A stretch of 41,772 nucleotides of DNA from Paracoccaceae bacterium (lineage in GTDB: Bacteria > Pseudomonadota > Alphaproteobacteria > Rhodobacterales > Rhodobacteraceae): contig JASJDQ010000010.1 of the NCBI GenBank assembly GCA_030065075.1, positions 1 through 41,772 on the forward strand, written 5' to 3'. Shown piece by piece: positions 4,466 through 24,130 of this stretch; the first letter of the stretch is position 1, and the number at the start of each line of letters is the position of its first letter. A program made the translations under genes and the position numbers. Under the pieces are notes generated by a model, which made no database searches, was not told the DNA's origin, and was given only the letters and a program-made list of their open reading frames with translations.

Positions 4466-5704
4466 GTGCCGCTCAATAAGCTATCAGCCGCAAGAGTGAA
4501 GGCCCTCGGGCCAGGGAAGTACAATGACGGCGGTGGATTATGGCTCTGGAAGCGGGAAGACGGCGGTCTTCAGTGGGTACTCCGGGTCACAATTCACGGT
4601 CGGCGCAGGGAAATGGGCCTCGGAGGCTCGGACATGCTTCTGTCCGAGGCGCGAACAGAGGCTGACAAGTGGCGCAAGCTCGCGCGACGGGGGGTTGACC
4701 CCATTAAAGAGCGCGCCCGTCTCAGAAGGGAAGCCGAGCGGGCCGCACACACACTTGCCGACATGATCGCAGAAACCCATGAGAAAAAGCGGGGTGAGCT
4801 AAAGACCGAGGCTTCCTGGGTGCGATGGGACGCGCCACTCAGGACCCATTTGATCCAAAAGCTCGGGAAGGTCCCTATCGCAGAGCTCGACGCGTCGGAC
4901 ATTCGCGACGCGCTCAAACCTATCTGGAACGACAAGGCCGAAACTGCGCGCAAGACAATCAACCGGCTTGGTCAGGTCATGACCTACGCTGCCGCGCTTG
5001 GGCTCGACGTAGACCTTCAGGCGATCGACAAGGCAAAGGCACTCCTAGGAAAGCAGAAGGCCAAAGCACGGCATATCCCGGCGATGGATTGGCGCGAGGT
5101 CCCGGCTTTTTACCAGAGCCTCGGCAGGAACCCGGCCGAACTCGCACTGAAGTTCGCGATCCTGACTGCCTCTAGATCAGGGCCTGTTCGACTCATGCAC
5201 CAGGACGAGCTCTTCCGATATCACGACGAGGCCGAGCCCGGCTCCCCGCTTGTTTGGATCATTCCCGCCGAAAAGATGAAAGCGATCCCGATTGAGGTCG
5301 ACGGCGGGTGGCGGGTCCCAGTCTCCGATGAGGCCCAGCGCGTCCTCGACCTGACCGAGCCGCTCAGACGCCAGGGTCACGTCTTTGTTGGCGCGACTGG
5401 GAAGCCTTTGTCCGATGCTGCGATGGCGCGGGTCCTCGATCGCCGGGAGATTGTTGCCAGGCCGCATGGGTTCCGGTCCTCCTTCCGCGACTGGGCCGAA
5501 GCTCAGGGCATACGGTACGACCTCGCTGAGTTGTGCCTCGGACACGCAGTCGGAAACCGGGTCGAACGCGCGTACCGCAGAGACGATTTCCTCGCCCAGC
5601 GCGCAGAGGTCCTTAGTCGCTGGGCTGAATTCCTGACCGGCCTGCTTAGCACAGCGTCCGGCGCCGACACACCAAAATGGCCGAACAAAGGTCGCGCGGC
5701 ATAA
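4466..5704 (+). CDS. int: Tyrosine recombinase/integrase with DUF4102-type N-terminus
   Basis: A 412-residue site-specific recombinase that should integrate and excise the island at tRNA-Met. The start is GTG at 4466, preceded by GGAGGAT with correct spacing. The N-terminal part (KLSAARVKALGPGKYNDGGG, then LWLWKREDGG and RREMGLGG) is the arm-binding DUF4102-like domain of P4-type integrases. A SAM-like core-binding domain follows (about residues 90-180). The catalytic domain shows the first arginine in TASRSGPVR (about 236), the HxxR box in HGFRSSFRDWAEA (about 333-336), the second histidine in LCLGHAVGN and the nucleophilic tyrosine in VERAYRRDD (about 369). It appears intact. The next gene overlaps its stop codon by one base, suggesting one early operon. 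Confidence 0.92.
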   Translation: MPLNKLSAARVKALGPGKYNDGGGLWLWKREDGGLQWVLRVTIHGRRREMGLGGSDMLLSEARTEADKWRKLARRGVDPIKERARLRREAERAAHTLADMIAETHEKKRGELKTEASWVRWDAPLRTHLIQKLGKVPIAELDASDIRDALKPIWNDKAETARKTINRLGQVMTYAAALGLDVDLQAIDKAKALLGKQKAKARHIPAMDWREVPAFYQSLGRNPAELALKFAILTASRSGPVRLMHQDELFRYHDEAEPGSPLVWIIPAEKMKAIPIEVDGGWRVPVSDEAQRVLDLTEPLRRQGHVFVGATGKPLSDAAMARVLDRREIVARPHGFRSSFRDWAEAQGIRYDLAELCLGHAVGNRVERAYRRDDFLAQRAEVLSRWAEFLTGLLSTASGADTPKWPNKGRAA

Positions 5705-6418: not shown

Positions 6419-6741
6419 GAGCTTTGACACATCTTGCGCGCCAATGTGCATGGCGGTTCGATTGGCTCCTCGACGAGCCCGAGGTGGCCGTTGTGGACGA
6501 GAGCGTAGAGCGCTGCTCGATCGCCCTTTGGTGGGTCAAGCTCCCCATGCAGAATGTGGCCCGGTGCTACAACCTCGGCCCCCGCGGGCACTTTGTGAGC
6601 CTCGCGGTTCCCGCGCACTTCGAGAGCCGCCCGGACCCGGTTGAGCGAGCCATGTGGAAGTTCAGCAACGAGCGCCGGAAAATGGCGTGTGCTCAGGACG
6701 TGGGCCTCATGCTCGAACCGACGGCGGGAGGGGTGCAGTGA
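6415..6741 (+). CDS. Hypothetical protein between excisionase and primase
   Basis: The GTG at 6415 overlaps the previous stop (GTGA), and its own TGA overlaps the GTG of the primase gene, so this 108-residue product sits inside a tightly coupled operon. I do not recognise the family. It has a mixed alpha/beta look, with WRFDWLLDEPEVAVVDES, a run of small strands (CSIALWWVKLP, HFVSLAVPAHF), no membrane segment and no nuclease motif. Context suggests a replication accessory or a regulator of the neighbouring primase. Its reality is supported by start/stop overlaps on both sides rather than by homology. Confidence 0.6.
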   Translation: MRALTHLARQCAWRFDWLLDEPEVAVVDESVERCSIALWWVKLPMQNVARCYNLGPRGHFVSLAVPAHFESRPDPVERAMWKFSNERRKMACAQDVGLMLEPTAGGVQ

Positions 6742-9527: not shown

Positions 9528-12500
9528 ATGAACACCGCCGCGGACATACGGCAATCGGATATTCTTGATCGATGTGTCTCAATCGATCTCGAAGTCGATC
9601 CTGAGAAAGCGAAGATATTCGCTTTCGCGGCCGTCGTGCGCGACCCAGATAGCCCTAGCCTCGTTGTGAAGGGTCACGTCGAAGCGGGACTGCCGCGGCT
9701 CGATGATTTCTGTCGAGGCTTCGATCACGTCATCGGGCACAACATTCTTCGCCATGACTTGCCACATCTCGCAGCCGCCTCACCCAGGTTTATGAAGTTG
9801 GCTGAAGCTCCAATCGACACGTTGTGGCTCAACCCATTGGCCTTTCCACGCAATCCTTATCACCACCTGGTCAAACATTACCAAGATGGTCGCCTGCAGA
9901 CGGGTCACATCAATGATCCTGAGTTCGATGCACGTCTGGTGTTCGAAGTCTTGGAAAACCAAATCAGCGAGTTTCGCCGGCTTGACGAGCGGGCGCCAGA
10001 TGCCCTGATTGCCTATCACTATTTGTGCTGTCACACACCAAATAGCGGCGGCTTTGGTCAGTTGTTCTCAGAAATCCGCGGGGCCGCGGTCCCGAAGCAA
10101 AGCGAAGCTGAGAATGCAATTCGTCGATTACTTGAGGGGGCCGCTTGCTCCGCAATGGTCGAGGAGGCCCTATCTGGACTCGAAGATACCAGTTTGTGCT
10201 GGCCCATGGCCTACGCACTTTCTTGGATTTCAGTGGCTGGCGGAGATTCTGTTATGCCGCCGTGGGTTCGCATGCAGTTCCGCGAAGCATCGCATATTGT
10301 GAAGGCCCTTAGGGATACGAACTGTGGTAGTCCAACTTGCGAGTATTGCCGCGCTCATAACGACCCAAAACAGGCTCTAAAGCGGTGGTTTGGGTTTGAC
10401 GACTTTCGTCCCGAGCCAATAGATGAGTTCGGACGTCCCCTACAAGAACGTATCGTTGAGAGTGCGATGCAGGGCGAAAGCGTTTTGGGCATTCTCCCTA
10501 CGGGTACCGGCAAATCGATCTGCTACCAAATCCCAGCGCTCTCGCGTTTTGACAAGACCGGTGCGCTGACTGTTGTGATATCTCCGCTCGTCGCGCTCAT
10601 GGCGGACCAGGTTCAAGGGTTAGCGCGGGCGGGTATCTCGTCAGCGGTGACAATAAACGGATTGCTTTCGCTTCCTGAGCGGCAGGACGCACTGGACAAG
10701 GTGCGCATGGGAGACGCAGCCATTCTTCTGATTTCGCCGGAACAGTTGCGTAGCGTGTCGGTACGCTCTGTGCTCGCGCAACGCGAAGTCGGGTTATGGG
10801 TTCTCGACGAAGCGCACTGCGTCTCGAAATGGGGGCACGATTTTAGGCCGGACTATCGATATGTTGGGCGCTTCATCAAGGAGCGGTCAGATCAAGAGAT
10901 CGCCCCGATTCTTTGTCTCACGGCTACGGCGAAACCGGATGTCGTTCAGGACATCCGAGGACACTTCAGCGAGCACCTTGGACTTGAACTCACCTTACTC
11001 GACGGCGGTGCTTCTCGCTCCAATCTAAGCTTCGAGGTTCTCCCGACCCAACGATCTACCAAATTGGCCGACATCCTCGATCGAATAGAGGAATACCTAC
11101 CTGCTACCGGCGCATCTGGCGCTGTTGTTTATTGCGCGACACGGAGCGCCACGGAACGTGTCGCCGAGTTCCTGAAGCAACAGGGTTTGGCTGCCGAGCG
11201 CTATCACGCAGGTCTTTCCGCAGACGAGAAGCGAGAAATCCAGGAAGCGTTTCGCGTCGGCGAGCTTCGCATCATCGCGGCAACCAATGCGTTCGGGATG
11301 GGCATCGACAAACCTGATATTCGTCTTGTTGTGCACGGAGACGTACCCGGTTCATTGGAGAATTACCTACAAGAAGCGGGTCGAGCGGGTCGGGACCGTG
11401 CGCCTGCTCGTTGCACGCTCCTTTTCAGTACTGAGGATGTTGATCGCCAGTTTAGCCTGAGTGCCCGCTCGCGGTTGGCGCGGCATGAGATAAGCGCAAT
11501 TCTTAAAGCCGTCCGAAGGCTTGACGGGAAGACACGCAAGAACGGGGAGGTCGTCGCGACTTCGGGTGAAATCGTCAAAGAAGAAAAAGACCAGGATTTC
11601 CAGCGCGACAGCGCCACTGACGATACGCGTGTCAAAACAGCCGTGGCTTGGCTCGAAGAGTCAAAACTCCTTCGGCGCGAGGAGAACCGCGTTCAGGTGT
11701 TCCCAGCCTCATTGCTCGTAAGGGACATTAATCAGGCCAAGTCGATCCTCGATCGCGCAGACATCACCGACACGCGACGGCGACAGCTTCTCAAGATTGT
11801 CCAGCACATCATCAACGCATCCCCCGCGGAGGGGATTTCGACAGACGACCTGAGTGGCGCCAGTGGGCTTACGGGTCCAGCCCTGCGCAGAGCGCTCACC
11901 GATCTGGAAGCGCTGGGCATCGCCAATGACGACACCAACATTACGATTTTTGTTCATGTCGGTGTAGAGAACGCTTCGCAGGCTCGGTTTGAAGCGGCTG
12001 CAAAACTTGAAGCAGGATTAGTCTCTATACTGCGGGAAGAGGCACCCGATGCTGATGATGGAGAGCCAACACCGTTCAATCTCGCAGCAACCAGCCAGGT
12101 CCTCAGAGAAGTCGGCCACGACACAGTGCGCCCAGACATTGTGGAGGGTCTTCTGCGAGGAATGGCGCAAGACGGCCGGGACATGGAAGGCGGCCGAGGA
12201 AATCTGCACGTTAGAAAGGCCTCGCGCGGAAGCCTGTTTGTTCGGCTGCAGCGCTCCTGGTCCATTGTCGACAAGACCGCCGAAATCCGGCGCCTAGGCG
12301 CCGAGCGACTTCTCTCTCATTTAATCGGGAAAGTCCCGAAGGGCGTTAGGGGTAAGGACATCGCGGTCGAAACGACCTTGGGAGGCTTGTTGGCTGCAAT
12401 AAACGGCGACGCCATGCTTCGAGGAGCCGTTAGTGACCCAAACAAACTAATGGATCGCGCGCTTCTCTGGCTCCATGAACAGGAAGTCGTAACGCTCGGC

Positions 12501-14642
12501 AAAGGACTTTCGGTTTTCCGACCGGCGATAACTCTTCACCTTGACCCTAAGGGAGGGAACTTCACGGTTCAGAACTTCGCGCCGCTTGAAGAACACTATA
12601 CTGAGCAGACCATCCAAACTCACGTCATGGCGGCCTATGCTGAGAAGGGCCTCGAAAGCATCGACGACGCCGAAAGGTTGGCGGAGGATTACTTCGTTTT
12701 GGAGCGCGATGCATTTATGCGGCGCTGGATGCCTGGACGCGGCACGGAGTTTCGCAGGCAAGCAACGGGTGCGTCTTGGACCAATATCGTCGACTCGTTG
12801 GGCAACAGCACCCAAGAGCACATCGTCCGTGACGATCGCGAGCAGACCAATGTTCTTGTGCTAGCCGGCCCGGGCTCGGGGAAAACTCGCGTTCTGGTGC
12901 ATCGCATTGCCTACCTGGTAAAGATCAAGCGGGAAGACCCGAGAGGCATTCTTGTTCTTGCCTACAATCGACATGCCGCTGCTGAAATCCGCGAGCGATT
13001 GCGCATCCTGATTGGTGATGAAGCCCGCTTTGTAACTGTTTCGACCATTCACTCCCTAGCGATGCGGCTCGTGGGAGCGAGCTTTGCAGGAACGGCCGCT
13101 GCCGAGAATCCAGATTTTGACACACTACTGATGGATGCCGTTCGACTTCTGCGCGGCGACGGCATGGACAAAATCGCCGCCGAGTCATTGCGAGATACTC
13201 TAATACAGGGATATCGCTGGCTTCTTGTCGACGAGTACCAAGATGTCGGCCCGGAAGAATATGCTCTCATTTCCACAGTTGCCGGCCGGAGTCTTGATGA
13301 TCCGGACTTGCGTATCAGCCTCTTTGCGGTGGGCGACGACGATCAGAACATCTACTCATTCGCAGGCGCTTCAATTCGCCATATCCGGCAGTTCGAAGAA
13401 GACTATTCTGCTAGGCCTGTCTTTCTGACCGATAACTACCGATCAACAAACAACATCATTACTGCGGCGAATGCGGTAATCGAACGCGCTGCAGACAGGA
13501 TGAAGACAGGCCACGACATCACGGTCGACCCAGCGAGGCGAAGCGATCCGCCAGGCGGCGAAATGGCCGGGCTTGATCCGGTTGCCCAAGGAAGAGTCCA
13601 GATTCTGGAATGTCCTGAAGGCAACGATGCACAAGCGATGGCAGCGATCGACGAGCTTGTTCGCTTATCTCGGTTGATTCCCGACTGGTCTTGGTCAAAG
13701 GCCGCCATCATCTCGCGAGATTGGAAGAAACTCGCGCCCGTCCGGGATTTCGCGGAAGCGCTAAACATTCCAGTCGAGGTCGCAAATGAACAGCTGCCCG
13801 GTCTCTGGCGAATGCGCGAAACGCAGGCGTTTGTCGAAGCGCTTCGCAAGGACCACAGCCGAGTGGTCTCGGTATCCGATTTGACCAACATTCTGAACTC
13901 GATCCCTTGCTCGCGTTGGACCAATCGCATTGGAGAGGGATTGGGCTTGCTTGCACGCGAGATCGATGATCGCAGCATGCCGGCTGCAGATGCAATTGAA
14001 TGGCTGGCCGAATGGTCTCGGGAATCCTGGGGTGAGCAACGCGGACTGAAGCTCCTAACAGCACACCGAGCAAAGGGGCTCGAGTTCGATAGTGTTGTCA
14101 TCCTCGATGGAGGTTGGGAACGCCCATCCCGGAACGAAGACCAGGACGCGCCACGACGGTTGTTTTATGTCGCGATGACCCGCGCGCGCCGAAACCTGAT
14201 AGTTATGAGCAACGACAATCACGAGTATCTTCCGACGCGAACACCCGCAATTATCAGCCGAACCGTAACGCCCGACCTTTCAACCTTCCCAGGTCCCAGG
14301 CGGTATTTCCAATCCGCTGAAACGAGCAGTGTCGATTTGTCGTTCGCAGGTCGCCTCGGCCACCAAAATGAAGCGCTGAATGCGATTGCTGATGCGAAAG
14401 TCGCCGACCCAATTGATTTGAATCTTCAGGAACATCCGTACTCAATTAGAGACGCACAGGGTAGGACCATCGGCCGTATGGCAAAGAGCTTCTCCGCTCC
14501 GCCCAACACCAAGTTTTTGCGCGGGGAAGTGGCAGCAATCGTTAGTAGGCGGAAAGAGGACAGCGACGAAGCCTACCACCATACACTTAGGCGAGATGCA
14601 TGGGAGGTTGTCGTACCTGAGTTAATTTTTGAGGTCTCGTAG
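9528..14642 (+). CDS. Exonuclease-like/RecQ-like/UvrD-like multidomain helicase
   Basis: A 1704-residue protein with three enzyme modules. (1) Residues about 15-145 look like a DEDD 3'-5' exonuclease: CVSIDLEVDPEKAKI (D20, E22), HVIGHNILRHDLPHL (D77) and PEFDARLVFEVL (D134). (2) A Cys-rich knuckle follows, CGSPTCEYCRAH (about 266-277). (3) A RecQ-type SF2 helicase spans about 290-640: LPTGTGKSICYQIPAL, DEAH in LWVLDEAHCVSKWGHDFRPDY, LTATAKPDV, AFGMGIDKPD and YLQEAGRAGRDR. (4) A long middle part with winged-helix-like segments. (5) A UvrD/PcrA-type SF1A helicase spans about 1105-1570: LAGPGSGKTRVLVHRIAYL, LVDEYQDVGPEE, GDDDQNIYSFAGAS, TAHRAKGLEFDSVV and FYVAMTRARRN. All motifs look intact. It is monocistronic and lower in GC than the host flanks. 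A role in DNA repair or in defence is inferred from architecture and its place as island cargo. Confidence 0.88.
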   Translation: MNTAADIRQSDILDRCVSIDLEVDPEKAKIFAFAAVVRDPDSPSLVVKGHVEAGLPRLDDFCRGFDHVIGHNILRHDLPHLAAASPRFMKLAEAPIDTLWLNPLAFPRNPYHHLVKHYQDGRLQTGHINDPEFDARLVFEVLENQISEFRRLDERAPDALIAYHYLCCHTPNSGGFGQLFSEIRGAAVPKQSEAENAIRRLLEGAACSAMVEEALSGLEDTSLCWPMAYALSWISVAGGDSVMPPWVRMQFREASHIVKALRDTNCGSPTCEYCRAHNDPKQALKRWFGFDDFRPEPIDEFGRPLQERIVESAMQGESVLGILPTGTGKSICYQIPALSRFDKTGALTVVISPLVALMADQVQGLARAGISSAVTINGLLSLPERQDALDKVRMGDAAILLISPEQLRSVSVRSVLAQREVGLWVLDEAHCVSKWGHDFRPDYRYVGRFIKERSDQEIAPILCLTATAKPDVVQDIRGHFSEHLGLELTLLDGGASRSNLSFEVLPTQRSTKLADILDRIEEYLPATGASGAVVYCATRSATERVAEFLKQQGLAAERYHAGLSADEKREIQEAFRVGELRIIAATNAFGMGIDKPDIRLVVHGDVPGSLENYLQEAGRAGRDRAPARCTLLFSTEDVDRQFSLSARSRLARHEISAILKAVRRLDGKTRKNGEVVATSGEIVKEEKDQDFQRDSATDDTRVKTAVAWLEESKLLRREENRVQVFPASLLVRDINQAKSILDRADITDTRRRQLLKIVQHIINASPAEGISTDDLSGASGLTGPALRRALTDLEALGIANDDTNITIFVHVGVENASQARFEAAAKLEAGLVSILREEAPDADDGEPTPFNLAATSQVLREVGHDTVRPDIVEGLLRGMAQDGRDMEGGRGNLHVRKASRGSLFVRLQRSWSIVDKTAEIRRLGAERLLSHLIGKVPKGVRGKDIAVETTLGGLLAAINGDAMLRGAVSDPNKLMDRALLWLHEQEVVTLGKGLSVFRPAITLHLDPKGGNFTVQNFAPLEEHYTEQTIQTHVMAAYAEKGLESIDDAERLAEDYFVLERDAFMRRWMPGRGTEFRRQATGASWTNIVDSLGNSTQEHIVRDDREQTNVLVLAGPGSGKTRVLVHRIAYLVKIKREDPRGILVLAYNRHAAAEIRERLRILIGDEARFVTVSTIHSLAMRLVGASFAGTAAAENPDFDTLLMDAVRLLRGDGMDKIAAESLRDTLIQGYRWLLVDEYQDVGPEEYALISTVAGRSLDDPDLRISLFAVGDDDQNIYSFAGASIRHIRQFEEDYSARPVFLTDNYRSTNNIITAANAVIERAADRMKTGHDITVDPARRSDPPGGEMAGLDPVAQGRVQILECPEGNDAQAMAAIDELVRLSRLIPDWSWSKAAIISRDWKKLAPVRDFAEALNIPVEVANEQLPGLWRMRETQAFVEALRKDHSRVVSVSDLTNILNSIPCSRWTNRIGEGLGLLAREIDDRSMPAADAIEWLAEWSRESWGEQRGLKLLTAHRAKGLEFDSVVILDGGWERPSRNEDQDAPRRLFYVAMTRARRNLIVMSNDNHEYLPTRTPAIISRTVTPDLSTFPGPRRYFQSAETSSVDLSFAGRLGHQNEALNAIADAKVADPIDLNLQEHPYSIRDAQGRTIGRMAKSFSAPPNTKFLRGEVAAIVSRRKEDSDEAYHHTLRRDAWEVVVPELIFEVS

Positions 14643-15118
14643 CTCGCCTTGGCGCGAGTTCGCAAGTCGCCTCTGCGTCCCTCGCGCCAATCCTCAATCC
14701 AACTTCATTCGTGCACGATTAACCGTCCACTCCTACACTCGGACCCGAACATGGATGTCTAAAAGTCTGAAAAAATCGCATCCTGGAACAAAGACCTTAT
14801 GTAATCCACCTAAATATCCACCTTTGATCGCTTAGTGGACCAGGTCGACGCCGTGCTTCCGCCTGCATGTGGACGAAGCAGACCTTTGCTACTGCTGCAT
14901 GACGGATCGTACAGATCAAAATACGGCAACTAACTCATCGCAGCTTGATGTCTCAAGTGCGGAGAAGGCCGTCTTCCAGCCGTCTACAGCAAATGGGAAT
15001 GCTCGACATAAAGCAGCCGTTCAGCCGGCTCGCAGCCAACTTCCGCTTTGAGCCCAAAATTACCAGATGCTGCACATGGGTCCAACGTCCACAGAGCGCT
15101 CACAGCCGACTTTGGCAA
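14643..15118. other. Intergenic region without a supported gene
   Basis: The 476 bp contain a hairpin directly after the helicase stop (listed separately), then AT-rich sequence and fragments such as GAGCCCAAAATTACCAGATG. The latter resembles a stretch near 24365-24385. Short open frames on the plus strand have no ribosome site and no recognisable content. Confidence 0.5.
14649..14690 (+). terminator. Possible terminator hairpin after the helicase gene
   Basis: A perfect 10-bp inverted repeat, TTGGCGCGAG (14649-14658) and CTCGCGCCAA (14681-14690), is separated by 22 bases and starts 7 bases after the stop codon. No T-run follows, so it may be a Rho-assisted terminator or an RNA-stabilising hairpin rather than a classical intrinsic terminator. 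Confidence 0.45.
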
Positions 15119-16063
15119 CTACTCCGAAGGATGTGTCGACACCGTCCGAAAGCCGATGTGATTTGTCCCAAGACCCGTGTCCTGAGCGTGTCTGGCTGCC
15201 GGTCTGTAGCGACCGCAGAAATCTGGCGAGCAGAGGAATGACCCTCCCTTGATCACGGCAACCGGAATATCAGGCTGCACGGGGTCGAAGCCGGTGGAAT
15301 CTACTCCTTCTGGCGGTTCGAAGCGCTTGTCAGGGTAGTAGGGGTCTTCGGTCCATTCCCAAACGTTTCCGATCATATCGTAGAGCCCATATCCGTTGGC
15401 TGGAAAGCATCCGACTTGAGCGCGTCCCATGTGACCGTCTTCAGCTGCGTCGTTCTCCGGGAACATGCCTTGCCAGGTATTCGCCATATAGACCCCTCCT
15501 GGGGTGAAGACATCTCCCCACGCAAACGGCTTGCCGTCCAAGCCTCCTCGTGCCGCATATTCCCATTCCGCTTCGGTCGGCAATGCACGGCCCCTCCAAT
15601 CCGCATAGGCTTGAGCATCTTCCAGAGAGACTTGAACGACAGGATCGTTGTCACGGCCTTCAATCGAACTGTGTGGGCCCTCGGGGTGACGCCAGTTTGC
15701 ACCTTCCACAAACTGCCATTGCATGGCGTCGAAGACGGCGGACCCGTTGGCAGGCCAGCCCGTCTCGACCATACGTTCTGCGCTGGTCACGTATCCCGTC
15801 GCCGCTACGAATTTAGCAAACTGACGGTTCGTTATTTCGTGCGCGTCAATCCGGAATGGTTCGACACTCAGTCGAACGATCGGACCTTCTTCGGCGTAGA
15901 ATCCGGTGTCTCCCATGTCGAAGGTGCCACCTTCAATGGCAACGTCGCCTAGGGGCTGAACACATATCGGGCCAGCTGCGGTCAGATGCCCACGCTCGAC
16001 AGTCGCGCCAAGTACGCCAATGGTCGTCAGAGCCGCGAAACTGGCAAGCAAAGCTGTCTTCAT
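15119..16063 (-). CDS. Formylglycine-generating enzyme family protein with signal peptide
   Basis: A 314-residue SUMF1/FGE-family protein. These enzymes oxidise the active-site Cys of sulfatases to formylglycine. The motif GGSFLCSPDFCGRYRPAAR contains both expected catalytic cysteines (C278 and C283). Other family hallmarks are VAIEGGTFDMGD, DAHEITNRQFAKFV, RALPTEAEWEYAARGG, GLYDMIGNVWEWTED and GTNHIGFRTV. The N-terminus MKTALLASFAALTTIGVLGA reads as a cleavable signal peptide, implying a periplasmic enzyme. The ATG overlaps the TGA of the preceding barrel gene (ATGA), and the gene ends an operon that begins with a Cys-type sulfatase, its obvious substrate. It appears complete. Confidence 0.9.
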   Translation of the reverse strand: MKTALLASFAALTTIGVLGATVERGHLTAAGPICVQPLGDVAIEGGTFDMGDTGFYAEEGPIVRLSVEPFRIDAHEITNRQFAKFVAATGYVTSAERMVETGWPANGSAVFDAMQWQFVEGANWRHPEGPHSSIEGRDNDPVVQVSLEDAQAYADWRGRALPTEAEWEYAARGGLDGKPFAWGDVFTPGGVYMANTWQGMFPENDAAEDGHMGRAQVGCFPANGYGLYDMIGNVWEWTEDPYYPDKRFEPPEGVDSTGFDPVQPDIPVAVIKGGSFLCSPDFCGRYRPAARHAQDTGLGTNHIGFRTVSTHPSE

Positions 16064-17043
16064 CGGTTCCTCAGAAATGCTGCGGGCACCGCCGGAGAGA
16101 TCGAGAACTTGATCGAGCTCTCCGGATTGATGCCGCTCGAAGTGGTGATGTAGTCTTGGTACTCAAGGCTGAAGCGGACCGGCAGTTTGCCGACAAAGGT
16201 TGTCTTGTTCAAACCAATGCCGACGGGAACATCGACCTCTGTTCCGCCAACGCCGTTCCAGTTGATCGAGATCGTGGGAGATGCCCCGATGGACCATTGG
16301 TTCGGCAACTTGCGATAGACGAAGTACTGGATGTTTGTCCGGTTCACGTCCGCCCGATTGTCGTCACCCGCAAACGACCACCAGTGCTGCGGAAAGAGGC
16401 CTAGCGTCCAATCCTCTCCCAGATAGGCAAGCGCGCCCGCAATCCCTGCCTGGAATTTGCCCTGACCGAGGAAATCCTCGCTTGCTGTCGGAAAGATGAA
16501 GGTCGGCCCAATGGCCCAGATCAACTTTCCGTTGCCGATTGGCGTCGTTTCATTCGGTGTGAAGAGACCGACATAGGTGATGTCGCCGAAGCCGCGCGTT
16601 GACCCTGCTAAGTCAGCGGGCGTGGGAGCGGGTCCGGTGATACCGAAGTTCAGCCCGTTAGCGTCAAAACTCACGTTCGATAGCGCATCGCTATTGATCG
16701 GAACCTTGGGAAAGCTCAACACGACGCGGTTCACAAGACTCCAGCGATCGTTCAACCGGATTGGGAACGTCGGGATCAATTTGACATTCTTGATTACCTG
16801 CTCGGTGCCGAAGAATGGTTCGGTCACGGTCTTCCTCTCATAGACGAACGGCACAGACACCATTTCGCCCACAGGGTTGTCCATCGCCCGGCTGATCTGA
16901 TCTGATGTCAGCTCACACCCGGCCTGCAAAAGGGCATCAAGCGTGGACCCGGGCTCGGCGATCAGTTCGTCGGTGCAGTTGCCCTGGGCAGACACCTGAC
17001 CGGCGAAAAGGACGCACACGAGGGAGAGAGCGAGGCGTTTCAT
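16060..17043 (-). CDS. Exported beta-barrel-like protein, second of a pair
   Basis: A 327-residue exported protein with signal peptide MKRLALSLVCVLFAGQVSAQ. After about 60 residues containing two cysteines, it shows alternating amphipathic strands and aromatic girdle-like positions (LNDRWSLVNRVVLSFPKVP, GNGKLIWAIGPTFIFPTASE, LGLFPQHWWSFAG), as in outer-membrane transporter/neuromedin-U-like proteins. It lies 3 bp after the other barrel gene and overlaps the FGE gene by 4 bases, so translation is coupled. A role in passing sulfated substrates or products across the outer membrane is inferred from context only. The terminal residue is not the usual phenylalanine, so the barrel call is moderate. 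Confidence 0.65.
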   Translation of the reverse strand: MKRLALSLVCVLFAGQVSAQGNCTDELIAEPGSTLDALLQAGCELTSDQISRAMDNPVGEMVSVPFVYERKTVTEPFFGTEQVIKNVKLIPTFPIRLNDRWSLVNRVVLSFPKVPINSDALSNVSFDANGLNFGITGPAPTPADLAGSTRGFGDITYVGLFTPNETTPIGNGKLIWAIGPTFIFPTASEDFLGQGKFQAGIAGALAYLGEDWTLGLFPQHWWSFAGDDNRADVNRTNIQYFVYRKLPNQWSIGASPTISINWNGVGGTEVDVPVGIGLNKTTFVGKLPVRFSLEYQDYITTSSGINPESSIKFSISPAVPAAFLRNR

Positions 17044-17046
17044 GCG

Positions 17047-18015
17047 TCAGAAATCGCTGCGTCGTTCCAGCACGTCATGCCAGGACCAGACAAATTGCAG
17101 CTTGGTGACCGCTGCATCCGCATCGAACCCGCCGATGTCGCCACTGACGGCCTGCATATGGCTCAATTGGAAGCTGGCATTGTCATTGACCTGATAGCCA
17201 AAGGTGAAGCCCAGGAAGTGCGCGTCGATCTCGTCGCTTGTGCCGGTCGTCAATCCGGTGGAGTTGCTGACGAATGTCTGGGCGCCGCCGTTCAGGTAAG
17301 TCCAGTCTAGCGAGGCAAAGGCATTCTTGGTGATGTCCCGCGTCAGGTGCGCTTCGACCGAGTAGAGCGGGTCTTGCTCGATGGTGTCGCCGAAGCTGTT
17401 GTCGTTATCGCCGAACCAACGGACAGCGGGCATGACTTCGAATGTCGTGCGGCGTCCGGGCACCCAATCGCCGATGTTCCACAGGATCGGCGCCGAGAGA
17501 CGGGCACTCCAGCGGTTGGAGCCCAAGTTGAGCGCTTCGTTTGCGTCGTAGGTTCCGGTTGGAGCGCTGAAATGTAGGCCGATATTGACCGAAAGCGTTT
17601 CTTCCCAGCGCAGGAAGTCCCGGACAGCAAGCTCGGGCACCCCGGCCACGTTTACCGCCGCACCGAATGTCAGATCGCCGATGCCATCCGCGAAGGTGTT
17701 GGTCGCACCCAATGGCAGGGAACTGTCGGTGTCGAGGCTACCGAACGGAAGGCTGGCCTGCCAGAGGATTGTGCGTCCGAACAACGGCTGGCTGCGAACA
17801 TAGGTTCCGACCCAGAAATCCGGCGCGACATCTAGCGTGCCGCGGTAGTTGTCGAAGACGGGGAACTTCAGGTTCGCGCGCCCATCGAAGCGCGAGAAAC
17901 TGATGATGTTCGTGTTCTTCGGGATCGGCCAGTACACCCGTGGCCCGTCGAATTCTGCGACGGCGGGTGTGCCGCCGGAGAGGCAAAGTGCCGCGATACA
18001 TAGTGCCTTTTTCAT
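17047..18015 (-). CDS. Exported beta-barrel-like protein, phenol MetA-pathway type
   Basis: A 322-residue exported protein, signal MKKALCIAALCLSGGTPAVA. The mature part has the look of the MetA-pathway-of-phenol-degradation family of outer-membrane barrels: regular amphipathic strands (TLDVAPDFWVGTYVRSQP, SFQLSHMQAVSGD), IGDLTFGAAVNV, GLHFSAPTGTYD and RTTFEVMPAVRWFGDN. It ends with a terminal phenylalanine (LERRSDF), the typical C-terminal signature for barrel insertion. The gene starts 12 bp after the sulfatase stop and is followed after 3 bp by a second barrel-like gene, so the two may form paired channels for sulfatase substrates. The substrate is unknown. Confidence 0.72.
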   Translation of the reverse strand: MKKALCIAALCLSGGTPAVAEFDGPRVYWPIPKNTNIISFSRFDGRANLKFPVFDNYRGTLDVAPDFWVGTYVRSQPLFGRTILWQASLPFGSLDTDSSLPLGATNTFADGIGDLTFGAAVNVAGVPELAVRDFLRWEETLSVNIGLHFSAPTGTYDANEALNLGSNRWSARLSAPILWNIGDWVPGRRTTFEVMPAVRWFGDNDNSFGDTIEQDPLYSVEAHLTRDITKNAFASLDWTYLNGGAQTFVSNSTGLTTGTSDEIDAHFLGFTFGYQVNDNASFQLSHMQAVSGDIGGFDADAAVTKLQFVWSWHDVLERRSDF

Positions 18016-18027
18016 CAGAGCCCCCGC

Positions 18028-19782
18028 TTACTCGGTGATTGCGTAGTTTGGTTCCTGTCCGCGCGGATACCTGTCGTCATCGACCGGCGGACGCGGCGGC
18101 AAGATTTGTTCCAAGCCGTCGTAGAATGAACGGTTCGGGCGCACGATGTTGTTGGCCCGCGCGTATTTCTTGTAGGCGTTGATCAGTGCGGCCCGTCGCC
18201 CGGGCTGGCTGGCCGACAGGTCGCGTGTCTCGCCGGGATCGCGGGAGACGTCGAACAATTCCCAGCGGTCGTAGCCAAATGGCTTCGGCATCCACACGAC
18301 CTTATAGCGGCCGCTTCGCGCGTATTGCGCGCCGAAGAACTGCCCTGCGATAATGCCGCCATCCGAGCGTGGGTTGGAGGATTTGCCCTGTAGGAGGGGC
18401 ACCCAGGAGCGGCCTTGCATGCCCTTGCTGTTCGCACCCGCCAACCGCGTCAGTGTCGGCGCGATGTCCTTGACGTGCATCAGCGCGCTGCGGTTGACCT
18501 TGCCTTTATCGCCTATTCCCTTGTGCCAGACGATCAGCGGCGACCGGATGCCACCCTCATAGCCCGAACCCTTGTAGGCCTTGAACGGCGTGGCCGAGAC
18601 CTGTGCCCACGGGGCGCCATAGGCCATGTAGCTGTAGCTCCGGCCATAGGACGAGAAATCGACACGGTAGTTGTTCGGATACCACGCCGAGCTGGATAGG
18701 GCCGGTCGGTTCTTTGCGTTCTGGATCGGATCGTTGCCCTCGGGCCCGTTATCCGAAAAAAACAGCACAATGGTGTTGTCGGCTTGTCCGGACTTTTCCA
18801 GATACTTCATCAACTCGCCGACCTGGAAGTCGAGATATTCGACCATCGCGGCATAAACTTCCATCCGGCGAGCTTGCTGGACCTGCGCCGCTCCAAGCAG
18901 GTCGTCGAACTCGGGGATGTACCACAGACGGGGCGGCAGTTTCGCAGTCCTTGGCACGACGCCCAACCGTTTTTGCCGGGCCAAGCGCTGCTGTCGCAGC
19001 TTGTCCCAGCCCATGTCGTACTTGCCCTTGTACCTCCAGAGCCATTTCTTCGGCACCTGCAGCGGATCATGAGGCGCCTGGAAGGACAGGTACGCAAAGA
19101 AGGGTTTCCCGTTCTTCCGTCCCTCTTCGATGTAGCCCTCGAGCTTGTCGGTGAAGGTCAACGAGGAGTAATAGCCGCGCGGCAGGCGGCGAAGATATTT
19201 GGTATTTTCCACGAACTCGCTTTTGGGGCTGACTTCGTTTGCTCCGGTCAGGTCAAAATGGCTGCCTGCGGCGTTCAGGAGCGAGAAGCTGCGGTCAAAC
19301 CCACGCGCCGCAGGAATGTGGCGAGGTGAATGGCCCAGGTGCCACTTACCAGCCATGTAGGTCCGGTAGCCCGCCGCCTTCAGACGCTCAGGCAGCGTGG
19401 GCACGCGGGTCGAAAGCACCCCTTCATAGCCTTCGAGATCGAGCTGGTTCGGGGCGGTCTGCTCATACATGTTGCCAAGACCGACCCGGTGATTGTCGAT
19501 CCCGGTGAGCAGCATGGCTCTTGTCGGAGAACAGGTCGCGCCGACATAGAATTCGGTATAGCGATGCCCCTCTTTCGCCAGACGATTCAGGTTCGGCGTC
19601 CGGATTTCGCCGCCGAACGCACCGATGTCGGAGAAGCCCAGATCGTCGGCTACGATCACCACAAAGTTCGGGCGTTTGTCCTGCGCGATTGCGAACTGCG
19701 CCAGTCCGATCACGCAGATGAAGACGGCCAGTAATAGCCTCTTGATGAATGCTTCTTTGCTTACCAAAAGTTCAAAGTTCAT
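18028..19782 (-). CDS. Cys-type arylsulfatase family protein, exported
   Basis: A 584-residue hydrolase of sulfate esters. The N-terminus (MNFELLVSKEAFIKRLLLAV followed by a hydrophobic run ending QFAIAQ) is a signal peptide with a slightly long n-region. The core begins RPNFVVIVADDLGFSDIG, with the metal-binding Asp pair. The sulfatase signature is GATCSPTRAMLLTG, with the formylglycine precursor at C84 in CSPTR. The second signature-like box is GKWHLGHSPRHIPAARGFD. The remaining metal ligands lie in FFSDNGPEGND. Its length is usual for arylsulfatases. It is the first gene of the minus-strand operon with two barrels and an FGE, which could mature it. Direct repeats upstream (19857-19884) suggest LytTR control. 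The natural substrate is not evident. Confidence 0.93.
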   Translation of the reverse strand: MNFELLVSKEAFIKRLLLAVFICVIGLAQFAIAQDKRPNFVVIVADDLGFSDIGAFGGEIRTPNLNRLAKEGHRYTEFYVGATCSPTRAMLLTGIDNHRVGLGNMYEQTAPNQLDLEGYEGVLSTRVPTLPERLKAAGYRTYMAGKWHLGHSPRHIPAARGFDRSFSLLNAAGSHFDLTGANEVSPKSEFVENTKYLRRLPRGYYSSLTFTDKLEGYIEEGRKNGKPFFAYLSFQAPHDPLQVPKKWLWRYKGKYDMGWDKLRQQRLARQKRLGVVPRTAKLPPRLWYIPEFDDLLGAAQVQQARRMEVYAAMVEYLDFQVGELMKYLEKSGQADNTIVLFFSDNGPEGNDPIQNAKNRPALSSSAWYPNNYRVDFSSYGRSYSYMAYGAPWAQVSATPFKAYKGSGYEGGIRSPLIVWHKGIGDKGKVNRSALMHVKDIAPTLTRLAGANSKGMQGRSWVPLLQGKSSNPRSDGGIIAGQFFGAQYARSGRYKVVWMPKPFGYDRWELFDVSRDPGETRDLSASQPGRRAALINAYKKYARANNIVRPNRSFYDGLEQILPPRPPVDDDRYPRGQEPNYAITE

Positions 19783-19856
19783 TGCACGACTAGCCCCTCG
19801 TCTGAAATGACCTTAGGGAAAGTCTGCGCAGGAAACTTGGCACTGACGACACCCGG

Positions 19857-19884
19857 TGCACGAATGAACGAACGGATGCACGAA
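19857..19884 (-). promoter_or_regulatory. LytTR-type direct repeats upstream of the sulfatase operon
   Basis: TGCACGAA occurs at 19857-19864 and again at 19877-19884, exactly 20 bp apart, i.e. about two helical turns on one DNA face. An inverted copy follows at 19891-19898 (TTCGTGCG). LytTR proteins are known to bind paired direct repeats at this kind of spacing. The site lies 75-100 bp upstream of the sulfatase ATG and next to the end of a LytTR gene. Confidence 0.55.
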
Positions 19885-19898
19885 CGGCGGTTCGTGCG

Positions 19899-20741
19899 TC
19901 ACGAAGCGTCACTGAAGCCTATGTCGTCGGCAAATCTCGCCATCTCGGCTTGATGGCTGCGCGAGACCGGCAGGCGCGTCCCATTCTTCAGTTCAACGCA
20001 CATCTTGCCGTTCGTCCGAACGAGTTTTTCAATGCCGGCGCGATGCACCCAATGAGAGCGGTGGACTTGCAGTCCGGTCATTGCGTGACACTGCTCCACG
20101 GCGTCAGAGAGCCGCATGAGAAGCAACTCCTCGCCCGCCTCCGTCGCCACCCGCACATAGTGCCGCTCCGCCGACAGGGCCCACAACTGACCGACCGTCT
20201 TGGGAGAGAGCCGCTTGAAGAAATCGGGCGGCGCTTCGAGATCGTCGGCGGAGGTCGCGGTGTCGGTTTCGGTTGAGGCCTCCGGTTGACGTTCTTCGGG
20301 AAGGCGCGATTTCCACCAACGAAAGCTCAGGACCATCCAGAGCATTGACCCCAAGGTGGCGTGAAGCACCAGACCTGCCGGATAGGTTGCCTTCAGCCAG
20401 ACCCAGAACGCGTCGCGCGTCGCATCCGACCCGACGACCAAGCCGGAAATCCACAAGGCATTCATCGAAAGCGCCGTCGATGGAATGGCTGCCAACACAC
20501 ATCCGATCAGCGACGCGGCGCGGGTCGAGCACAAGGTGCAATATCGCGCCATCAACACCGCGAAGGCGGTTTGCAGTGGCAGGGCGATCGTGACCAAGAC
20601 GATGGATTGAAGGAGAACATTGGTGATCGCCGCTGCGTCGCCGAATTCGCCGATCAAGCGCGACAGGCCAACGATCAGGAACGCCGCGAATAGAACCCCG
20701 ATATGGTGCCGCCAAAAGCTATGATCTTGAAGAATTGCCAA
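19899..20741 (-). CDS. Membrane-bound LytTR-domain transcriptional regulator
   Basis: A 280-residue one-component regulator. Residues about 13-145 hold four hydrophobic segments (HIGVLFAAFLIVGLSRLIG, TNVLLQSIVLVTIALPLQTA, AASLIGCVLAAIPSTALSM, GLVLHATLGSMLWMVLSF). After a linker rich in E, T and S comes a LytTR DNA-binding domain: LWALSAERHYVRVATEAGEE, LLMRLSDAVEQCHAMTGLQV and VHRSHWVHRAGIEKLVR, ending TRLPVSRSHQAEM. No receiver domain or histidine kinase is present, so the membrane part is probably the sensor. The start at 20741 is a TTG and is uncertain. It is a paralogue of the next gene upstream. The direct repeats on both sides of this gene suggest autoregulation and control of the sulfatase operon. 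Confidence 0.85.
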   Translation of the reverse strand: MAILQDHSFWRHHIGVLFAAFLIVGLSRLIGEFGDAAAITNVLLQSIVLVTIALPLQTAFAVLMARYCTLCSTRAASLIGCVLAAIPSTALSMNALWISGLVVGSDATRDAFWVWLKATYPAGLVLHATLGSMLWMVLSFRWWKSRLPEERQPEASTETDTATSADDLEAPPDFFKRLSPKTVGQLWALSAERHYVRVATEAGEELLLMRLSDAVEQCHAMTGLQVHRSHWVHRAGIEKLVRTNGKMCVELKNGTRLPVSRSHQAEMARFADDIGFSDAS

Positions 20742-20810
20742 GACACCAATCGCCCCCGCTATCGATTAACCGACAGCGTGCGCGTAGAGTCTCATCAATT
20801 CCACTTTGGT

Positions 20811-20849
20811 TGCACGAATGGTGTCCCATCATGCACGAGACGCCATTCG
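20811..20849 (-). promoter_or_regulatory. LytTR-type repeats upstream of the first LytTR gene
   Basis: TGCACGAA (20811-20818) and TGCACGAG (20832-20839) lie 21 bp apart, the same element and nearly the same spacing as at 19857-19884. In addition ACGAATGG (20814-20821) is inverted as CCATTCGT (20842-20849). The site lies 70-110 bp before the LytTR start at 20741, consistent with autoregulation. Confidence 0.5.
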
Positions 20850-20857
20850 TTCAGCTC

Positions 20858-21805
20858 TTACGCGGGTAGAAATTCGGCCAGTTCCTCTCTGACCGCGCCG
20901 CTGAAACTTCTGGACACAGGCAACTCGATATCGTTCTCAAGTTGGACGGAGAGGTTGTTTCCGGCGGCTTGCAAGGCTTGTACTGCGTCATAGCTGATCC
21001 AATGCGACCGGTGAATGCGCATGCCTTGTTCGCTCGGAACCTTTCCAATGGCCTCGCTGAAAGGCATAAGCACAAGGTCGTCACCGACATTGGTGTGAAT
21101 GCGGACATAGTGCTGCTCCGCGGATATCGCGAGAAGTCGGCCCCGTTTCTCGGGCGGCAGCTTTCGCTGCAAACTCCTGGTCTCGTCCGTGACAATGGCG
21201 TTGGGCACACTATCGGCTTTCTCGGACGGCGGCTGGTCTTCCAGATGCGCCACCCACCAGCGAAAGTTGAGCAGCATCCAGAGCAGCGGGCCAAGCGTGG
21301 CAAAGCCGAAGAAAATGAAGTGCAGGCGGGAGGCGACGTTCTCGAAGAACTGTTGCCTTGTTTCGACAATGGCCGAACCGGTCGGCATGACACCTGCGAG
21401 CCAACTGAGCGACGGACTGAGAATCGCCGCCGGGAAGGCAGCAAGAAAGCATCCAGCGATCGCGCATACCGAAAGCGGAATGCGGCCACTAAAGGCAGAC
21501 ATGGCAGACGACGCAAAAAGCGTCTGAAACGGATACGACACGGCGACCAGGATCACCGAGTGTATGAAGACACCGGTCAGGTCAGTGCCGTTACCTGCGG
21601 CTCCGACAGTCCGCGAGGCCGTAAGAATCAGAACAGCCGCTGCGCAAACGATCAGGCTGTGAAGCCAAAGGTTCCTCCGCAAGTCAAAAAAGGACCCCAC
21701 CCCTCTTCTCCGCGGTTCATAGACAGTGACAATGGCTGCAGCATACTCCATCGTATCGCTTTGGAAAAGCAAAACGAGAGGACGGACGTTGCCAGCGGTG
21801 GCCAT
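20858..21805 (-). CDS. Second membrane-bound LytTR-domain regulator
   Basis: A protein of up to 315 residues and a paralogue of the adjacent LytTR gene. Membrane segments (NLWLHSLIVCAAAVLILTAS, FIHSVILVAVSYPFQTLFAS, SVCAIAGCFLAAFPAAIL, RLHFIFFGFATLGPLLWML) precede a linker and the LytTR domain RLLAISAEQHYVRIHTNVGD, LMPFSEAIGKVPSEQGMRI and HRSHWISYDAVQAL, ending IELPVSRSFSGAV. No strong ribosome site supports the ATG at 21805. An internal ATG at 21751 (MEYAAAIV) is a reasonable alternative. Conservation of the four-segment membrane module in both copies suggests they sense a related signal, or form a heterodimer on the paired repeats nearby. Confidence 0.83.
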   Translation of the reverse strand: MATAGNVRPLVLLFQSDTMEYAAAIVTVYEPRRRGVGSFFDLRRNLWLHSLIVCAAAVLILTASRTVGAAGNGTDLTGVFIHSVILVAVSYPFQTLFASSAMSAFSGRIPLSVCAIAGCFLAAFPAAILSPSLSWLAGVMPTGSAIVETRQQFFENVASRLHFIFFGFATLGPLLWMLLNFRWWVAHLEDQPPSEKADSVPNAIVTDETRSLQRKLPPEKRGRLLAISAEQHYVRIHTNVGDDLVLMPFSEAIGKVPSEQGMRIHRSHWISYDAVQALQAAGNNLSVQLENDIELPVSRSFSGAVREELAEFLPA

Positions 21806-21829: not shown

Positions 21830-22411
21830 TTACGAAATCAACAGTCCTAACAGGTGATCCGCCAACCCCTCCGTCATGGGCTCTTTTATGATCAGGGTGC
21901 GTTGAAAGACCGTTCCCACTATGACGTCCAGGATAAACTGCGTGTTATCGGACGCCATGTCGCCGCGCTCGATCCCGCGCTCGATCGCCTGCGCGGCAGT
22001 CAAGCGCCACGGATAAACATACTTCTCTCGGAACACTGCTGCCATCTCGGGATCGGCCTCGACGGTCGTGATCGCCGCGAAAATCACGATGGATGCCAGC
22101 GGGCGGGAAAAGGTCTCGATGAGTTGCTCGATGGCGCTTCTAAGGTCGTCCTCCGTCGTCCCTCTGTCGGGAACCGAGCCAATGGCGATCTCGTCCGCCG
22201 CGGCATCCAGCACAAGGACACCCTTTGTGGGCCACCATCTATAAACGGTCGACTTGCTTGCTCCAGCACGACTTGCGACTCCCTCCATCGTGAGCCGTTG
22301 GTAGCCAGACTCAAGAAGAAGCTCCCGCGCGGCGGCCAAAACGGCCTCACGTGTCTTCGTACTTCGAGGCCGCCCACGACGCGGCGGGACGTCGGCTGAT
22401 TCATCCGTCAA
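21830..22411 (-). CDS. TetR/AcrR-family transcriptional repressor
   Basis: A 193-residue regulator, starting at TTG 22411 preceded by AGGAG at 6 bases. Residues about 18-65 form the TetR HTH: TREAVLAAARELLLESGYQR, LTMEGVASRAGASKSTVYRWWPTK. The C-terminal part has the TetR_C-like helical region with VEADPEMAAVFREKYV and RGIERGDMA. It is divergent from an exported amidohydrolase gene, with an 18-bp near-palindrome (22456-22473) between the two starts, so it probably represses that gene and itself. The inducer is likely a substrate or product of the amidohydrolase. Confidence 0.9.
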   Translation of the reverse strand: MTDESADVPPRRGRPRSTKTREAVLAAARELLLESGYQRLTMEGVASRAGASKSTVYRWWPTKGVLVLDAAADEIAIGSVPDRGTTEDDLRSAIEQLIETFSRPLASIVIFAAITTVEADPEMAAVFREKYVYPWRLTAAQAIERGIERGDMASDNTQFILDVIVGTVFQRTLIIKEPMTEGLADHLLGLLIS

Positions 22412-22455
22412 TTCAAGCTCCTGCTCTTGTGGCGTGATCTTCCGTCATCTTTACG

Positions 22456-22473
22456 AAACGGTACGTATTGTTT
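22456..22473. promoter_or_regulatory. Palindromic operator in the tetR-amidohydrolase gap
   Basis: AAACGGTACGTATTGTTT equals its own reverse complement at 14 of 18 positions, with a perfect TACGTA centre and AAAC/GTTT arms. This is the size and form of a TetR-family operator. It lies 45 bp before the TetR start and about 59 bp before the amidohydrolase ATG, and overlaps an AT-rich stretch (TTTTATATAA) that could be a -10 region. Confidence 0.55.
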
Positions 22474-22531
22474 TATATAAGTCAATATGCGATCCTGTCC
22501 GCCGACTCGCATACAATCGGGGGGATTTGTT

Positions 22532-24130
22532 ATGCGGACTGTTTGGCTTTTCGCTGCCATGCTTATGGCGTTTGCAAGCACCACATTCGCGCAATCGACC
22601 GCCGTCACAGACGTCAACGTTATTCCGATGGACAGTGAACGGGTGCTGACCGACCAGGTTGTCGTGGTCGAAGACGGCAAGATCACCGGTATCGGCCCCG
22701 AAACCGCTATTGAGGTCCCAGACGGGTCAACCATCATTCAAGGTCAGGGCGGTTACTTGATGCCTGGCCTCGCCGACATGCACATGCATCTGGTGGGCGA
22801 TTTCACATATCGTGATCCAGAGCAGTTGCTCTTCTTTCTGTCGCAAGGAACAACGACCATTCGGGTGCTCGGTGCACCTCCAATCGCGCTCAAGTGGCGC
22901 GAAGACGTGCTTTCCGGTGATGTTGTTGGACCGAGGATATACGCCATGGGTCCAACGCTAATAGGAAACTATGACGACGAGATGGGATTCGGCTCAATTC
23001 TCTTGGGTTTCAACGTTGCGAGATTCGTAGTGCCGGTGCTCTTGGCGTTGGTGTTCGTGGTTGTCGTCAGACGATACCGCTCACGACGTGGCTTCTTGAT
23101 TGCAGGCTTGGCAGGGGCCACGTCAGGCGCTTTCCTCGTCGCCACCGAACAACCGCCCCTAAACATACTGAATCCGGTCTTTGACGCGCCTCAGGCGCAC
23201 GCGTTCGAGGACCGTGTATCTCCTCTTCGGTCTGTGATTAGGAGTTATCGAGCGCGCGGTTTCGACGGCGTGAAACTTTATGATGGATTGAGCGAAGCTC
23301 AACTTCTATCCGCAGCTGACGAAGCCACAAGGCAAGGTCTCTACTCGACCGGCCATCTTTTGAACCATGTGCCTCTGGAAACTCAGTTGTCATCAGGGAT
23401 GCGCGAAGTGGCGCATGTCGACGAGTTTCTGTCGCACCATTGGATCGGCTACAATCTGGGACAAGACCCCGATCCCCGGTTCAGCGAAATCCAGGATTAC
23501 CCGGTCGATCCGGCAAGCATTCCGGCAACCGTCGAACTGGTCACTAAGAATGGCGTATCCGTCGTTTCAAACTTATCGACCGACGAAGCGCTGTATCGTT
23601 TGTTGCTGGATTTGGAAGGAACGTTGGCTGAACCTCGGTTCGGCGAGTTTCGGCAGGACTATGTTCAGGGCTGGAAGACAAGGGGGCGACATCTCGGACC
23701 GTTCGCAGGTCAGGGAGAACATCGTCGCGATGTATTTCAGCCGTTCCTGTCAGCTCTTGTCAAGGCGCTACACGACGCTGGAGTTTTGGTCACGATCGGA
23801 ACCGACGCGGGAGGGTTCACACCGGAGGGCTCCATACCAAGTGACATCCACCGCGAACTTGAGCTCCTCGTCGAAGCGGGGTTCACGAACTTCGAGGCGC
23901 TCGCAGCGGGAACAAGGTCAGCAGGCCGAATAATTGGCGAAATGGGAGGCGGCAGGCAAGGCACGCTCACGGTCGGAAGTGCGGCGGACCTGATCCTTCT
24001 GACATCCAATCCACTGGTTGACGTCAGCGCGACGCGTGAGCGCGCTGGTGTGATGGTCAGTGGACGTTGGTTTGCACAAGAAGACCTGAATAGACTGGTC
24101 GCCGACTATCAGAGCTCCCGAGATTGGTAG
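22532..24130 (+). CDS. Exported amidohydrolase with internal membrane segments
   Basis: A 532-residue metal-dependent hydrolase of the amidohydrolase superfamily. The start chosen is ATG 22532, preceded by GGGGGGA and opening with the signal peptide MRTVWLFAAMLMAFASTTFA. The N-terminal composite domain has VVVVEDGKITGIGPETAIEV. The metal site HxH is in GLADMHMHLVGD (H84, H86). Further likely ligands are K248 in GVKLY, H275 in STGHLL, H295 in AHVDEF, and the Asp of TIGTDAGGF. The end AGRIIGEMGGGRQGTLTVGS, then ADLILLTSNP, is typical. Unusually, residues about 160-205 form two hydrophobic segments (ARFVVPVLLALVFVVVV and GFLIAGLAGATSGAFLV) inserted in the catalytic domain, which should tether it to the membrane. 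The substrate is unknown. Confidence 0.85.
   Translation: MRTVWLFAAMLMAFASTTFAQSTAVTDVNVIPMDSERVLTDQVVVVEDGKITGIGPETAIEVPDGSTIIQGQGGYLMPGLADMHMHLVGDFTYRDPEQLLFFLSQGTTTIRVLGAPPIALKWREDVLSGDVVGPRIYAMGPTLIGNYDDEMGFGSILLGFNVARFVVPVLLALVFVVVVRRYRSRRGFLIAGLAGATSGAFLVATEQPPLNILNPVFDAPQAHAFEDRVSPLRSVIRSYRARGFDGVKLYDGLSEAQLLSAADEATRQGLYSTGHLLNHVPLETQLSSGMREVAHVDEFLSHHWIGYNLGQDPDPRFSEIQDYPVDPASIPATVELVTKNGVSVVSNLSTDEALYRLLLDLEGTLAEPRFGEFRQDYVQGWKTRGRHLGPFAGQGEHRRDVFQPFLSALVKALHDAGVLVTIGTDAGGFTPEGSIPSDIHRELELLVEAGFTNFEALAAGTRSAGRIIGEMGGGRQGTLTVGSAADLILLTSNPLVDVSATRERAGVMVSGRWFAQEDLNRLVADYQSSRDW

Follow-up and report, generated by a model that had tools for sequence, protein, structure and literature searches.

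Known LytTR regulators

Membrane LytTR transcription factors are common across the alphaproteobacteria, and in the LytTR regulatory systems (LRS: HdrRM, BrsRM) a LytTR factor is accompanied by a membrane partner with three to four transmembrane (TM) segments. Caulobacter HigX, the first 4-TM LytTR factor characterized in alphaproteobacteria, is located in the membrane, needs its TM part for action, and is reported to bind an inverted rather than a direct repeat (PMC13384398). CoxC of Afipia carboxidovorans is a membrane CO sensor that combines a seven-TM MHYT domain with LytTR; it regulates its cox target as a repressor, and its operator consists of direct repeats of TTNNNGCN, two turns apart, three of which are required (PMC11347149). 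RcoM, a heme-containing LytTR CO sensor, is cited in the same paper with an operator of three TTCNNGCA repeats (PMC11347149).

Here we analyze a stretch of 41,772 nucleotides (the window) in which two LytTR genes stand in tandem upstream of a sulfatase gene, accompanied by paired direct repeats. Judged from its sequence and conservation, this locus is very probably a real local control circuit, previously undescribed but of a known general type.

Gene content of the LytTR–sulfatase locus

The locus contains six genes, all reading leftward on the minus strand and transcribed in the order LytTR1, LytTR2, sulfatase, PF13557 protein, 327-aa protein, FGE:

20858..21805, minus strand: LytTR1, putative one-component regulator, 4-TM with C-terminal LytTR, 315 aa
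19899..20741, minus strand: LytTR2, putative 4-TM and LytTR regulator, paralogue of LytTR1, 280 aa, TTG start
18028..19782, minus strand: arylsulfatase (Pfam Sulfatase, 2.8e-65), probable target gene
17047..18015, minus strand: PF13557 protein (Pfam, 2e-21), in the sulfatase gene run
16060..17043, minus strand: 327-aa protein, flanked in the sulfatase gene run by the PF13557 protein and FGE
15119..16063, minus strand: FGE-type sulfatase-modifying factor (Pfam FGE-sulfatase, 2.5e-75), end of the gene run

LytTR1 and LytTR2 are 35% identical. In both, a Pfam scan returned LytTR as the sole domain (E = 4e-13 and 9e-13, respectively; PF04397 scores of 48.7 and 49.8 bits in the two paralogues, above the curated cut-off of 22.6), with no kinase or receiver domain; MHYT is likewise absent. 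Four hydrophobic segments of membrane-spanning length are present in each, as well as in both orthologues from G387, a genome of another genus in the same family. An earlier sequence-only reading had described the pair as paralogous 4-TM/LytTR proteins free of histidine kinase and receiver domains, and these results agree with it. Structure prediction with both window paralogues gave a model of low confidence (pLDDT 46) in which the helices are present. For LytTR1, an alternative GTG start at 21698–21700 yields a 280-aa protein that better fits the beginning of the G387 orthologue, and on this comparison the annotated start may lie too far upstream.

The arylsulfatase has the active-site motif CSPTR (C-x-P-x-R), and its nearest solved structure is the arylsulfatase 1HDH (3.6e-134). 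The FGE-type factor would be predicted to convert the sulfatase cysteine to formylglycine, and its location in one gene run with a sulfatase of the Cys type counts in favour of the circuit. Between these genes, the PF13557 protein is probably an outer-membrane barrel, and the 327-aa protein has no family match in Pfam or NCBIfam.

Flanking the locus, a TetR regulator divergent from an amidohydrolase (within 21830–24130) lies 24 bases upstream of the annotated LytTR1 start; no TetR regulator was seen beside the module in G387. Elsewhere in the window, positions 9528–14642 encode an unusual 1704-aa double helicase, comprising a DEAD-box half (DpdF-like, PADLOC) and a UvrD-like half (GajB-like), with an integrase (4466–5704) and a VapE-type primase (6654–9116) as neighbours. 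This helicase–integrase–primase region looks like a mobile island, and the double helicase is possibly a defence gene. A PADLOC match to mads_3 (6.6e-35) lies at the window edge (114–1178).

Paired direct repeats upstream of LytTR2 and the sulfatase

Two pairs of direct repeats, designated O1 and O2, and a possible additional half-site were identified:

20811..20839, minus strand: candidate operator O2, CTCGTGCA-N13-TTCGTGCA, period 21 bp; the start codon of LytTR2 follows after 70 bp
19857..19884, minus strand: candidate operator O1, TTCGTGCA-N12-TTCGTGCA, period 20 bp; the annotated sulfatase start follows after about 75 bp
19898..19905, minus strand: TTCGTGAC, possibly a third but imperfect half-site, located 21 bp upstream of O1 and overlapping the stop codon of LytTR2

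Read on the plus strand, the repeats are copies of TGCACGA at 19857, 19877, 20811 and 20832, exactly where the sequence-only reading had placed them (19857/19877 at 20 bp and 20811/20832 at 21 bp). That reading assigned one pair to the region upstream of the sulfatase, which is correct, and the other to the region upstream of the first regulator, which is not: O2 lies between the LytTR1 and LytTR2 genes, 5' of LytTR2, the second gene in transcription order. No spaced pair precedes LytTR1, either in the window genome or in G387. Sequence inspection revealed no clear third half-site at O2 and none in phase in G387.

Single copies of TGCACGA also occur at 19783 and 14709/14712. The former (19783–19789) immediately precedes the start codon of the sulfatase at a distance of 74 bp from O1, and no equivalent was seen at the corresponding place in G387. 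A solitary TTCATTCGTGCAC (14706–14718), with 13 bases matching the downstream half of O1, is situated in the gap that separates the end of the FGE gene from the helicase gene converging on it, without a partner half-site.

It is the pairing of the motif that is rare. Seven single copies were observed in the window vs 7.8 expected from shuffling. When the two 116-bp intergenic regions were resampled under a Markov model (20,000 rounds), any same-7-mer pair at 20/21 bp arose in about 2% of resamplings in each region singly, and an identical 7-mer paired at this distance in both regions arose in 0 of 20,000. Across the 3.92-Mb genome, four perfect TGCACGA pairs (spacer 12–15 bp) were found vs none for the reversed control pattern, and three of these adjoin three of the genome's four LytTR genes; frequent random occurrence of spaced pairs, which would have told against the sequence-only reading, was thus not observed. 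The third pair, a perfect TCGTGCA repeat at 21 bp (L009 5967–5994; G000:C229:36967–36994), lies 13–20 bases past the stop of the genome's CoxC-like gene, which, unlike LytTR1 and LytTR2, encodes an MHYT domain; the open frame downstream of this pair is one that we take, from its sequence, to resemble a CO-dehydrogenase medium subunit. The fourth pair (G000:C118:21281–21307) falls within a 471-codon open frame and is probably due to chance.

Conservation in a second genus

Relatives of LytTR2 were sought in an evenly drawn set of 397 family genomes, in 385 genomes of the class and in nine of the genus of G387, and the only close relatives were in G387. A scan of a contig collection gave weak partial matches only, and plasmid records contained no full-length LytTR2 relative. 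G387 has the same gene order as the window, LytTR1–LytTR2–sulfatase. The orthologues are 60% (LytTR1) and 55% (LytTR2) identical, vs 33–37% for the cross-matches; each regulator therefore best matches its own counterpart, which places the duplication before the split of the two genera. The sulfatase orthologue lies after LytTR2 and is 80% identical; among the 397 family genomes it was found in G387 alone (E ≤ 1e-180), and a search of 344 genomes of the order (E ≤ 1e-150) added none.

The G387 sulfatase ends some 60 residues sooner, at a TAG codon, and the genes that follow the sulfatase in the window were not seen in G387. The core unit accordingly consists of LytTR1, LytTR2, the sulfatase, O1 and O2. 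The sequence-only reading had called the circuit self-contained, and the set co-conserved in G387 is exactly the two LytTR genes and the sulfatase. The module has different neighbours in the two genomes, with a serine recombinase on one side in G387 (L068 12162–13817) and an Orn/Lys/Arg decarboxylase on the other; the nearby recombinase suggests that the module may be mobile.

Both candidate operators have counterparts in G387. The O1 counterpart, TTCGTGCATTCATCGGTTCATTCGTGCA, precedes the sulfatase with a 20-bp period and is the sole perfect pair in the 4.4 Mb of G387; alignment of the O1 footprints of the two genomes scores 70, against a shuffled maximum of 32. The O2 counterpart (L068 10261), CTCGTGTA-N13-TTCGTGCA, has a 21-bp period and one mismatch (TACACGA), and lies 69 bp from the likely LytTR2 start vs 70 bp in the window. 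The wider O2 regions align no better than shuffles, so conservation of O2 rests on half-sites, spacing and position. As the module occurs in two genomes only, the argument from conservation amounts to a single comparison.

The same half-site at CoxC-like loci

We surveyed 30 loci of the family that encode CoxC-like MHYT–LytTR proteins, including that of the window genome. A TCGTGCA pair at 20–21 bp, with at most one mismatch per half, lies just 3' of coxC at 25 of the 30 loci (shuffles, 0.3%); relaxed matching raises this to 29 of 30 (shuffles, 6.9%). The half-site at these loci reads GGCGCAnTTCGTGCAAAA. Through these CoxC loci, membrane LytTR regulators from across a bacterial family are associated with the half-site TTCGTGCA at 20–21 bp. 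This half-site fits the CoxC and RcoM consensus forms alike: O1 fully matches the TTCNNGCA / TTNNNGCN half-sites as a direct repeat at 18–21 bp, and O2 has a C in place of the first T in one half.

The motif does not accompany 4-TM LytTR genes in general. No TCGTGCA pair adjoins any of the other 4-TM LytTR genes scanned in the family, and repeats at 20–22 bp are not in excess at 38 such loci, which rules out a general rule that every 4-TM LytTR gene has such repeats. The absence of the motif and of a repeat excess at these genes also means that the link between LytTR genes and the repeat is not an artefact of genome composition.

Proposed circuit and alternative readings

The spaced pairs are rare and conserved, and direct repeats are known LytTR operators in CoxC and RcoM; the pairs in the window are therefore most likely operators. 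We consider it likely, on the strength of these sequence comparisons, that LytTR1 and LytTR2 are membrane one-component regulators and that O1 and O2 are their operators, controlling LytTR2 and the sulfatase. Each protein, composed of a four-helix membrane domain, a short linker and a LytTR DNA-binding domain, would be an anchored transcription factor, and the TTCGTGCA half-sites, two helical turns apart (20–21 bp), would present themselves on the same face of the DNA in the promoter regions of LytTR2 and the sulfatase. We propose that LytTR1 and LytTR2 bind these repeats and that a signal from the membrane or envelope, sensed by the membrane domains, alters this binding, so that the LytTR pair would govern sulfatase expression through membrane sensing, as the sequence-only reading had also envisaged. 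The sulfatase, the PF13557 protein and FGE would be produced together. As LytTR1 lacks a site of its own in both genomes, a plausible order is that LytTR1 acts on both the sulfatase and LytTR2, while LytTR2 would in turn be autoregulated through O2 and share the sulfatase operator. Counted against this proposal is that CoxC and RcoM have three half-sites, whereas the window has two firm ones. The mismatch and the unaligned surroundings of O2 in G387, the lack of the motif and of a repeat excess at the other 4-TM LytTR genes of the family, and the inverted repeat reported for HigX count against it as well.

As to the sign of regulation, we lean slightly towards activation because a sigma-70 promoter scan, which covers the promoters of this group poorly, found no match after either O1 or O2, and because of the RcoM precedent; that CoxC is a repressor counts the other way.

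A special form of this explanation holds that LytTR1 and LytTR2 bind as a hetero-pair, one protein per half-site, both being required. The paralogues have been kept together in two genera with similar divergence (60% and 55%), the LytTR motifs HRSHW and PVSRS are retained in both, and the halves of O2 differ in the same way in the window and in G387 (CTCGTG / TTCGTG). Against this, the halves of O1 are identical and CoxC presumably acts on its own, and we regard the hetero-pair as possible rather than probable. Equally tentative is the two-protein membrane switch that it would imply, in which the hetero-pair could integrate two envelope signals at two promoters, that of the sulfatase and that of one of the switch's own genes.

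An unlikely alternative is that the repeats serve the CoxC-like MHYT–LytTR protein or another regulator, with LytTR1 and LytTR2 working at other sites or through protein contact. The TCGTGCA core and its spacing are indeed identical at the genome's cox locus and at 25 of the 30 CoxC loci; given the identical operator core, the genome's CoxC could bind O1 and O2 as well. However, the flanks differ, the cox half-sites reading GGCGCAnTTCGTGCAAAA and those of the window not, and G387 retains the window-type operator alongside its LytTR pair even though, the sulfatase pair being the sole perfect one, it has no perfect cox-type site.

Less probable still is that the repeats function in RNA, forming a hairpin that serves as terminator or attenuator, and are not bound by protein. 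Potential stems do exist: GCACGAACcgccGTTCGTGC beside the LytTR2 stop could form one, the upstream half-site of O1 shares bases with an 8-bp inverted repeat, and GCACGAgtagTCGTGC spans the LytTR2 stop in G387. However, these inverted repeats shift position between the two genomes whereas the direct repeats stay in place, there is no such stem at O2, and the minus strand lacks a T-tract. The terminator reading itself was rejected, as a minus-strand scan gave no terminator match. Finally, that chance repeats lie beside ordinary regulators is scarcely credible: single TGCACGA copies do occur at chance level in the window, but the rarity of the pairs, the position of three of four beside LytTR genes and their conservation in G387 led us to reject this origin.

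Comparison with known systems

The preferred reading, a LytTR pair acting through O1 and O2, shares features with each of the systems introduced above. Like an LRS, the locus combines a LytTR factor with a membrane part in the absence of a kinase; in an LRS, however, DNA binding and the membrane part fall to two distinct proteins, of which the one in the membrane is inhibitory. Both window proteins hold TM and LytTR parts in one chain, and the locus is therefore not an LRS. RcoM, so far as it is described in the citing paper, shares with the window the half-site TTCNNGCA and spacers of 12–13 bp, identical to O1, and differs in its heme sensor domain, its three repeats and the lack of such a membrane domain. 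CoxC is likewise a membrane LytTR one-component regulator with direct repeats two turns apart, its core TTNNNGCN matching TTCGTGCA, and its relatives in the family have the TCGTGCA pair as the window does; in contrast to its seven-TM MHYT domain, cox target and three repeats, the window proteins are 4-TM and, lacking MHYT, neither is a CoxC.

In architecture the two proteins resemble HigX, with four TM helices, a linker and a C-terminal LytTR domain, without a kinase, receiver or large periplasmic domain, and as putative single-protein regulators. HigX, however, is one gene with many envelope targets and an inverted-repeat motif (PMC13384398), whereas the window has two tandem paralogues, gene-adjacent direct-repeat sites and a sulfatase neighbour. 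Among the papers searched, none connected LytTR with a sulfatase circuit. Thus, 4-TM LytTR factors and direct-repeat operators are each already known, and the new and rare element is a tandem LytTR pair with shared candidate operators at a sulfatase operon, which offers a compact model of two proteins, two candidate operators and one likely target operon kept in two genera.
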